Shown: positions 14,235 to 54,532 of the stretch, in pieces | How positions within the stretch are numbered: the first letter of the stretch is position 1 | How the letters are laid out: each line of letters starts with the position of its first letter | Assembly (NCBI GenBank): GCA_031272515.1 | Contig: JAISTR010000003.1 | Location: 1-64,000 of the forward strand | Length of the DNA stretch: 64,000 nt | Origin: Erysipelotrichaceae bacterium | GTDB taxonomy: Bacteria; Bacillota_I; Bacilli_A; Erysipelotrichales; Erysipelotrichaceae | Direction of reading: 5' to 3' | Notes under the pieces: model-generated | The model's input: only the letters and a program-made list of their open reading frames with translations | Told to the model about the DNA's origin: nothing | The model's database searches: none | Translations under genes and position numbers: made by a program

Positions 14235-15410
14235 TCAGCTTCGCTGACGCCATAGAGATAGCAGAATCGGCAGTCCCAACAGAAAGAAAACCACCAGGGA
14301 AGCATAAATCCCATAGAAGATATTGATATCAGCGACCTTGTTGACAAGCCAGACCGTGGGCAGGTAGAGAAGCTGTCCGACGGAGCGGGTCAGGGAAATA
14401 ACCGAGGTCTCCTCGCTGGGCTTGGTGTACTTTTGTACCAGCGGCAGCATCGTCGCATTGGTCCAGCCTTGGGTGACCCCCATCAAAAGATAGAACCAGA
14501 CAGTGAGAAGGTTCAAATGAATTGAGATTACGCCTAAGCCAATCACCGGCAGCAAGAGGGCGAAAAGAAAAATCTGCCACTCCTTCATGCGGCGCTGAAG
14601 GCGCTGTGCCAGCCAGGAGCCAATGGTATTGGCTAAGGTATTGAGGGCCCAGCCCAGCGAGACGATTTCCAAAGGCACACCAGCCAATAACAGCAGGGGA
14701 GTATAAATCCAGATTACCGCATGGGTGGACTCACGGGCTACCGCGTAAGCCCAGATGCGAAGTCGCAGCGGTGGGTTTTTTATGCTGGAGGCGATGACCC
14801 GCAGGATATCCGCAAACGGATTCTTTTTTTCGGGCACCAGCAGTTCACTGTCATCCTGGATAAAAAGGGAGGCAAGGGCTCCCAGGGCAAAGGGGACTGC
14901 GGAGGCCGCAATTGCCAAACGGAAGCTGATGGCACCAAGGGGTCCGCCCAAAAGGATCAATATCAAAAAGGCAACATATTGCAGAGTTGAGATGCGGGCT
15001 GCGTTGCTTCTATACAGCTCCCCGCTTTGATCGCGCTTGCGGCAGAAGTGGCGCAGCAGGGTGCTGTCCACCCCGGAGGACAGGGACATAAAGATACCGG
15101 ACAGGGCTTCCGCCAATACCACCATCATAAAGCTGTTGGCTGTTGAGTAAAGAAGAAAAGCCAGGGCGGTGCCGAAGTCCCCGATGACATTTGCCCACTT
15201 GCGGGAAAAGCGGTCCGCAATCCAGCCGGCAGGAATATTGAAAAACATCATGAATAGCGTAAACAGCATCTGGGAAAAGGCGATCATTTCCTGGTTCATG
15301 GCGATGCTGTTATAAAACAGGGTCATGAAGGGGATGCACAAAACCCCGGCGGTAATCACCGATTCAAAGGCAATCAAAAACAGATTTCGCTGGATGTCCC
15401 GGTTGCTCAT
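14235..15410 (-). CDS. MFS transporter
   Basis: A 391-residue major facilitator carrier with about 12 membrane segments. The loop GWIADRFSRKWANVIGD after the second segment is the MFS signature. The substrate is unknown; the form resembles drug or metabolite exporters. The start MSNRDIQ has an AGGA site five bases upstream. The same frame stays open upstream to 15497 through the end of an IS200/IS605 remnant, so an in-frame fusion with its TnpB-like tail is possible but unlikely to be used. The element therefore sits directly against the ribosome site, and a promoter inside it points to this gene. Confidence 0.88.
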   Translation of the reverse strand: MSNRDIQRNLFLIAFESVITAGVLCIPFMTLFYNSIAMNQEMIAFSQMLFTLFMMFFNIPAGWIADRFSRKWANVIGDFGTALAFLLYSTANSFMMVVLAEALSGIFMSLSSGVDSTLLRHFCRKRDQSGELYRSNAARISTLQYVAFLILILLGGPLGAISFRLAIAASAVPFALGALASLFIQDDSELLVPEKKNPFADILRVIASSIKNPPLRLRIWAYAVARESTHAVIWIYTPLLLLAGVPLEIVSLGWALNTLANTIGSWLAQRLQRRMKEWQIFLFALLLPVIGLGVISIHLNLLTVWFYLLMGVTQGWTNATMLPLVQKYTKPSEETSVISLTRSVGQLLYLPTVWLVNKVADINIFYGIYASLVVFFLLGLPILLSLWRQRS

Positions 15411-15420
15411 AGTATTCCTA

Positions 15421-15561
15421 TTTTGACGTCCTCCCCATGGCTTAAGCCGGGGGATTCTTACCGCCGCTAATACGGCCTCGATGGGTTCCTGCTTCATCTG
15501 GCAGTCTTATGACCTCGCCATCCGACAGGCAATTTATCACTCCGGGCGTCCCCCGGACTAT
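15421..15561 (-). ncRNA. Candidate stand-alone omega-RNA-like transcript
   Basis: Transcription from the promoter at 15568-15596 would start near 15561 and run about 140 bases to the element end, the length and position expected of a TnpB omega RNA scaffold. The bases after 15421, which would act as guide, are the ribosome site and start codon of the MFS gene. No intact tnpB is in the window, so activity would need one in trans. This is a positional inference. Confidence 0.25.
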
Positions 15562-15567
15562 ATAGAC

Positions 15568-15596
15568 TTTATATCGCAAATTCTATTTTATTTCAA
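15568..15596 (-). promoter_or_regulatory. Promoter inside the IS remnant, reading toward the MFS gene
   Basis: On the minus strand TTGAAA (15596-15591) is followed by exactly 17 bases and TATAAA (15573-15568). This is close to the sigma-A consensus and is the best promoter upstream of the MFS gene. Confidence 0.6.
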
Positions 15597-15738
15597 GAAC
15601 AAATACGCATATTCTTCGCTCATCCTTTAAAAACAAAACAGTTGTCCCTTTAGAAAAGAAGAACAGCTGCAGTTGTTTTACTGGTGCGCCTTATATCCCC
15701 ATGTCTAAAGGCAGGGGTTTTACGGCGATGTTTGATAA

Positions 15739-15760
15739 AAAAAAGGACCTAAGCCCTTAT
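15739..15760 (-). terminator. Terminator overlapping the 3' end of the phosphatidyltransferase gene
   Basis: On the minus strand AAGGGC, loop TTAG, GTCCTT (15758-15743) then a run of Ts. The stem begins within the last codons of the gene. Confidence 0.6.
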
Positions 15761-16291
15761 TACATCTTTTTTCAGCAGATTCATGTACAGTTCATGCAGA
15801 CAGGAGGCTGTAGCCACCAGACAAAGGCCGACGGCGAAGCTGTCGCGGAAGTATTGGGGAAACAGAAAGATGACGAAGATGCAGAAAGCGGTGAACTTGT
15901 TGAGGATGGAATGCATCGGCAGAAACTGCTTCCACTTGATTTTGCGAATCAGCCAGGCAGTGATGCGCACCACACAAAGTAGGGCAATCCAAACGAAGAT
16001 CCACCAGGGAAGGTGGTAGTGCTGCAGAAAGCGCAGAATCATAATCGAGTAGAAGGTCAAATCCGCAATCGTATCCATAATCGTGCCAAAACGGGAAATC
16101 GCCTGAAACTTGCGGGCGAAATATCCGTCCAGAACATCGGAGAGCCCGCAGGCCAGGTAGATCAGATAGTATGAAAACGAATAATAGGGGACAAAGATCA
16201 GGACAATCGACAATAAAACCCGGCCTCCGGTCAAAAGATTCGGGACCATTTTTTTTAATGATGATGTGGCAGGCAGGACGTTTTGCTCCAT
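15749..16291 (-). CDS. CDP-alcohol phosphatidyltransferase (PgsA-like)
   Basis: Membrane enzyme (180 residues) that transfers a phosphatidyl group from CDP-diacylglycerol to an alcohol, such as glycerol 3-phosphate. The complete catalytic motif D-x2-DG-x2-AR-x8-G-x3-D-x3-D is present in residues from SDVLDGYFARKF to GTIMDTIAD. About six hydrophobic segments follow. The start MEQNVL is six bases downstream of an extended -10 element and has no Shine-Dalgarno site, so the mRNA may be leaderless. Which alcohol is used cannot be told; a second pgsA elsewhere is possible. Confidence 0.85.
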   Translation of the reverse strand: MEQNVLPATSSLKKMVPNLLTGGRVLLSIVLIFVPYYSFSYYLIYLACGLSDVLDGYFARKFQAISRFGTIMDTIADLTFYSIMILRFLQHYHLPWWIFVWIALLCVVRITAWLIRKIKWKQFLPMHSILNKFTAFCIFVIFLFPQYFRDSFAVGLCLVATASCLHELYMNLLKKDVIRA

Positions 16292-16297
16292 ACTCAA

Positions 16298-54189: not shown

Positions 54190-54365
54190 ACCCAGAAGAT
54201 AAAGCTGGTTGGACAGCTGGCAGGTCTACTGGCTGGCGCTTCATCCTAAGAATCCCTTCCCGCTTTTGGCAGTGGTATTTGATTCTTCGTCAGCGCCTAC
54301 AGTTGCTGGGACAGCCTCATATTGAGTTCCCTGTTAGGCGATGTGCACCAAACTGTCTACACCAA
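54190..54365 (-). promoter_or_regulatory. Cobalamin riboswitch
   Basis: Reads on the minus strand. The B12 box AGCCAGTAGACCTGCC (54234-54219) is one base off the usual form, and the other core elements GGTGC, AACAGGGAA, AGGCTGTCCC and CAACTGTAGGCG follow in the correct order. A second hairpin (AAAGAC with GTCTTT, about 54163-54181) lies between the aptamer and the terminator. The arrangement fits transcription attenuation: B12 binding favours the terminator and lowers expression of the uptake and adenosylation genes. Confidence 0.92.
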
Positions 54366-54532
54366 GATTATAGCAGAGAATCGCTGCGCTACATCATGAC
54401 AAAGATGAAAACTGAAAAAAATGCAGGAAGCGGACCGCAAATGAAAGCCGGTTTCATATCGATATTCATTTTCTTTAGGGAAAAAATGTGATTTTTCATA
54501 AAATCATCACATAAATCCAAAACGCTCAGTGC

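Follow-up and report, generated by a model that had tools for sequence, protein, structure and literature searches.

A gene-less IS200/IS605 element with a candidate promoter at the edge of its omega-RNA scaffold, and a sister copy at valS

Results

The window, a 64,000-nucleotide stretch of an Erysipelotrichaceae genome, contains on its minus strand an MFS transporter gene (14235 to 15410; Pfam MFS_1, E=1e-24) and, upstream of it, a CDP-alcohol phosphatidyltransferase-like (pgsA-like) gene (15749 to 16294) whose NCBIfam matches fall below cut-off. Between them lies a 312-bp insertion without any ORF (15423 to 15734, minus strand), which fits between the predicted intrinsic terminator of the phosphatidyltransferase gene (15743 to 15758, minus strand), directly before it, and the ribosome-binding site of the MFS gene downstream of its right end. 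Read along the minus strand, the tetranucleotide TTAT (15738-15735) is followed directly by the left end at 15734, and the element ends in ...GGACGTCAA at 15423 (right tip ...GACGTCAA), after which comes AATAGGAATACTATGAGC, the MFS gene start. These boundaries were set by aligning copies of the element against each other, and they correct by 2-4 bases the extent of 15421-15730 given in the original prediction.

The ends are of the IS200/IS605 type. The left-end hairpin CCCCTGCCTTTAGACATGGGG (15697 to 15717, minus strand) has lost one pair relative to the other copies, and the AAAA just 5′ of it (15721-15718) is likely, by analogy with IS608, to be the left guide tetranucleotide. At the other end, a hairpin (15432 to 15454, minus strand) has GAAT directly before it (15457-15454) and TCAA at the tip (15426-15423); both match guide and cleavage tetranucleotides of the IS608 type, being the ones found in IS608 itself, and would have the corresponding roles here. 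The subterminal hairpins match those of IS605-type elements, and the initial observation that two such hairpins survive with no transposase, tnpB or other coding sequence between them holds. The TTAT adjoining the left end (15735 to 15738, minus strand) is found at all seven left-end junctions in the genome (7/7) and, judging from the biology of IS200/IS605 elements, is presumably the TnpB TAM; the right ends are followed by no repeat of it, that is, there is no target duplication.

The original prediction depended on similar ends being present elsewhere in the genome, and a search of the 2.13-Mb assembly (G000, a single assembly) returned 13 strong matches, one of them nearly full length. This sister copy, on contig C18 (L140, 3533-3843), lies at an unrelated locus, upstream of the T-box leader of valS, and aligns with the window copy over 312 bases without a gap, with an identity of 88-89% overall and 87-89% in each of three segments; the outermost 11 bases of its left end differ. 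A second, separate derivative of about 465 bp is present in two copies (C35:12532-12999 and C3:89068-89536; L017 and L019), which have both ends in common with each other and with the window copy and carry internal tnpB deletions that fuse N-terminal and C-terminal stretches of the gene at a common ACGCGGC. In both copies the omega-RNA is complete and the promoter region of tnpB is still present; the right tips read TTAA rather than TCAA. Further ends coincide with contig ends (right ends at C52, C39, C17 and C8; left ends at C33, C35 and C36), the pattern expected when a full-length element bearing tnpB is repeated. Since the element belongs to a family of copies in this genome, with TTAT before all seven left ends, it is a mobilised non-autonomous IS200/IS605 element (PATE) and not an isolated relic; "remnant", the term first applied to it, does not describe a multi-copy element with copies at unrelated sites.

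As the original prediction had anticipated, the genome contains tnpB sequences with matching right ends: on C52 and C39 the end of a tnpB is followed directly by the same right end, and thus by the same scaffold. The cognate gene is known from pieces (the N-terminal part on C31, the 3′ ends on C52 and C39), no single complete copy having been assembled, and these pieces encode catalytic RuvC residues, D in SIGIDKG (C31) and E in FSEELKIKDM together with D in DDADVNAAINI (C52, C39). The C31 piece (L139, 1-931) has its own ribosome-binding site, lies directly behind an ORF for a small membrane protein and has no recognisable left end. A second, distant TnpB (C29:113396) also keeps its RuvC residues. 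Outside the genome, the nearest TnpB relatives found are about 50% identical and occur in Succinivibrio and Dadabacteria. The suggestion of a TnpB-derived repressor was not borne out: no nuclease-dead TnpB was found in the genome, and the tnpB-family genes detected keep D, E and D in their assembled parts. Neither was a TnpA with these ends found in the genome; the full-length copies, broken by contig ends, look tnpB-only, and the Y1_Tnp matches are either degenerate or part of an element whose ends are different. Another IS200-type element (L012 on C15, L013 on C34), which does have tnpA but does not have these ends, is likewise collapsed at contig ends and is a possible source of transposase in trans.

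The right end comprises a complete omega-RNA scaffold (15423 to 15557, minus strand), running from the 5′ stem to GTCAA, with the guide directly after it, and is separate from any tnpB, as had been proposed. A covariance model built from eight in-genome right ends supports this assignment and identifies homologues of the RNA in 12 further genomes of the family (E < 0.01), one of which, in a coding sequence (L151), is probably a chance match; the family matches having a visible upstream gene lie mostly behind tnpB, several of them directly. In an alignment of 20 sequences, 94.5% of cells pair and 31 of 39 pairs show changes in both partners, counts that lean towards the model because the alignment was fitted to it; none of 500 shuffles reached that number of two-sided changes, and slid controls dropped to 35-51%. 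Covariation between CCGGG/CCCGG and CCGUG/CACGG in the first stem puts the scaffold's 5′ edge at about 15557. Rfam gave nothing relevant for the element, at gathering scores or with E up to 10, and none of its families matches the right end. The folding energy of the right-end RNA, taken as a single sequence, is just mildly better than that of shuffles, and the right ends from Succinivibrio were too divergent in their 5′ half for direct alignment with MAFFT. In the window and C18 copies, the substitutions in the omega-RNA break base pairs about as readily as random changes do (P 0.53 and 0.18). No selection on RNA structure was thus detected in these two copies, and we therefore grade a function of their RNA as possible.

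The guide region, AATAGGAATACTATGA (15407 to 15422, minus strand), coincides with the MFS gene's ribosome-binding site and start codon. Since these occupy the first 16 nt of the guide, its maturation and MFS translation would compete. A scan of the genome for TTAT followed by the guide, allowing up to 3 mismatches, found no other match.

Between the left part of the element and the scaffold lies a 93-bp segment (15558 to 15650, minus strand) common to the window and C18 copies alone, which meets the scaffold at its 5′ edge (~15557). It was not found elsewhere in 273 genomes of the family, 316 genomes of the order or viral contigs; in plasmid and phage searches, plasmids gave end hairpins only and one phage gave a right-end match. 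A derivation from the 5′ region of the tnpB element was considered and rejected, the similarity not exceeding that of shuffles. The segment contains the promoter-like site TTGAAA-17-TATAAA (15568 to 15596, minus strand; -35 at 15596-15591, -10 at 15573-15568), which is the only site of at least 9/12 on that strand at the window locus. The claim of a consensus-like promoter pointing through the right end to the MFS gene thus stands as regards the site and its position, but the -10 box is imperfect: the match to consensus is 10/12, and the T at position 6 is missing, for which reason a strict promoter scan omits it. Matches of this quality (10/12) turn up in the window at a rate of 0.2 per kb of each strand, and when the segment was shuffled 500 times, 19 of the shuffles contained one. 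The C18 copy carries TTGAAA-17-TATTAT, which the strict scan does report, and this conservation adds weight to the window site as a candidate promoter; given that both -10 boxes are one change away from TATAAT, the common ancestor of the two copies may have had the consensus. Counting 7 nt past the -10 box, transcription is predicted to start at 15561 (minus strand) in the window and near C18:3705 in the sister copy, in both about 4 nt 5′ of the first omega-RNA stem, and the predicted product of 139 nt plus a guide agrees with the RNA of about 140 bases, with a guide made of the MFS start region, that had been envisaged.

The strongest evidence that this module acts as a promoter comes from the sister copy and not from the window. 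The valS gene downstream of it (NCBIfam valS) is the only copy in the genome, and its T-box leader (L140:3853-4052; 77.6 bits, below the gathering score, E 2e-17) begins 9 nt past the right end of the element. When the flanks are rejoined, the empty site reads TTGAAT-17-TATAGT, and the junction falls within its -10 box. In all 13 of 13 relatives, valS has a T-box and a sigma-70-like promoter ending within a few bases of its start (the printed promoter-to-T-box distances in relatives include 6 bases of leader). The sister copy therefore interrupts the promoter that an essential gene had natively, and it appears to have replaced it: upstream of the valS leader, no site of at least 9/12 is left but the one that the element brought. 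With the native promoter lost and a sole candidate left, the promoter module very likely works; valS could also be transcribed by read-through from upstream genes. For the empty MFS site, no close MFS homologue or homologous locus was found among 60 relatives.

Discussion

Elements of this kind are known. The PATEs of Haloquadratum have IS605-type ends and near-terminal palindromes and lack terminal inverted repeats, target duplication and transposase, and some of them originate by repeat-mediated deletion of the core (PMC3119063). The element described here is like them in its ends, its palindromes and the lack of terminal inverted repeats, target duplication and a transposase, and the deletion of tnpB at a shared ACGCGGC in the C3 and C35 derivatives resembles those core deletions; it differs in having a conserved promoter-like site set against a complete omega-RNA. 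That study predates omega-RNA and describes none. In a PATE-like sequence of Halanaerobium hydrogeniformans (PMC7290912), a left-end hairpin is fused to the final 58 nt of tnpB, and the right end follows at its full length of 160 nt. The whole right end is kept in both cases, but the Halanaerobium sequence is a single copy with no promoter module described. In IS200/IS605 TnpB/omega-RNA systems the right end is the guide scaffold, the flanking DNA is the guide and the target site is the TAM (PMC8612924, PMC10278001), and the arrangement found here is alike in these three respects. However, in those systems the RNA is processed by TnpB out of the tnpB mRNA, whereas here the element is without tnpB and the RNA would begin at the scaffold edge, driven by a promoter. 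We found no description of an omega-RNA from a gene-less IS605 element, nor of any PATE that has a promoter of its own at the edge of the scaffold or that has taken the place of an essential promoter, although coverage of the literature was incomplete and such an absence is weak evidence. What is known, then, is the PATE itself, including one that retains the whole right end; the promoter at the scaffold edge and the replacement of an essential promoter are what we did not find described.

The reading that we consider moderately probable is that of a PATE in which a promoter module has been set at the edge of the omega-RNA, with a guide reaching into the downstream gene and use by TnpB in trans. 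An IS200/IS605 element would have been cut down to the two ends and would rely for its movement on a transposase provided in trans; transcription would start at the 5′ edge of the scaffold and proceed through the right end and a guide copied from the insertion site into the downstream gene. The module would thereby transcribe the downstream genes, a conclusion that is stronger for valS at C18 than for the window's MFS gene, since the -10 box of the window copy is imperfect. The PATE RNA could also load the genome's own TnpB, directing it to the empty site restored by excision, where TTAT is followed by the guide sequence, so that loss of the element would be penalised. Where the element is in place, TCAA instead of TTAT stands before the guide, and the host copy would be spared. 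Since no nuclease-dead TnpB and no second match to TTAT plus guide were found in the genome, the role of the RNA would most likely be the usual TnpB one, carried out in trans.

The element might instead be an ordinary PATE with a chance outward promoter, in which the omega-RNA segment is a right end recognised by the transposase, plus passenger sequence, that TnpB does not use. Insertion sequences with outward promoters are commonplace, and IS608-type TnpA transposition requires just a hairpin and tetranucleotides. PATEs are established as a class, the Halanaerobium one also retaining its whole 160-nt right end (PMC7290912), and the missing signs of selection on RNA structure in the window and C18 copies fit this account. 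However, both independent deletion derivatives retain the full 134-nt scaffold, beyond the needs of TnpA, and the promoter would start transcription within a few bases of the scaffold's 5′ stem, which leads us to regard it as possible though rather unlikely. Less likely again is a decayed and inactive remnant of a tnpB element, whose promoter match arose by chance and whose MFS gene is read through from upstream. The missing T6 of the window -10 box, the left-end hairpin one pair short and the presence of a 10/12 site in about 4% of shuffles are in keeping with decay; against it stand the intact end tetranucleotides and a gap-free sister copy elsewhere with the same promoter, which appears to have replaced the native promoter of an essential gene.

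A stand-alone guide serving a nuclease-dead, TnpB-derived repressor (TldR-like) elsewhere in the genome seems to us very improbable. A separate guide RNA fits such an arrangement in principle. TldR-guide cassettes likewise use a TnpB-type guide RNA, and the study of them notes a locus whose tldR is disrupted but which may go on providing guides in trans (PMC13418256); here neither a dead TnpB nor a target in trans was found: the partner TnpB and the other TnpB-family genes found retain their nuclease residues, the guide with its TAM matches no promoter elsewhere (within 3 mismatches, TTAT plus guide has no other match in the genome), and the guides of the two copies differ, being merely the insertion flanks.

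A broader proposal, which we put forward tentatively and think doubtful, is that promoter-bearing PATEs are portable promoter-plus-guide cassettes, held in place both by dependence on their promoter and by RNA-guided punishment of precise loss. Because TTAT is part of TATAAT-like sequences, such cassettes could insert into -10 boxes and take over host genes, even essential ones, while their guide RNA would direct the genome's TnpB to cut chromosomes precisely rid of the element. The usual description of TnpB guide RNAs is that they arise as by-products of tnpB mRNA. A gene-less element whose own promoter is directed at the scaffold edge would show that a guide can be made independently of the nuclease gene, and that IS605 elements without genes may also benefit from retention by TnpB. 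With the insertion at valS it can be tested directly whether elements of this type become hard-wired into the promoters of essential genes.

Some minor observations may be added. Genome G143 contains a TnpB-like protein with RuvC-type motifs and no zinc-ribbon cysteines (L162, 34-1386), and the IS605-type right end after its gene is repeated at no fewer than three places in that genome. Another omega-RNA-like right end in G143 (L145, 1501-1624) lies downstream of a gene for an IS110-type transposase, not tnpB, and is possibly another stand-alone scaffold. Elsewhere in the window there is a cobalamin riboswitch (54202-54368, minus strand, 73 bits).
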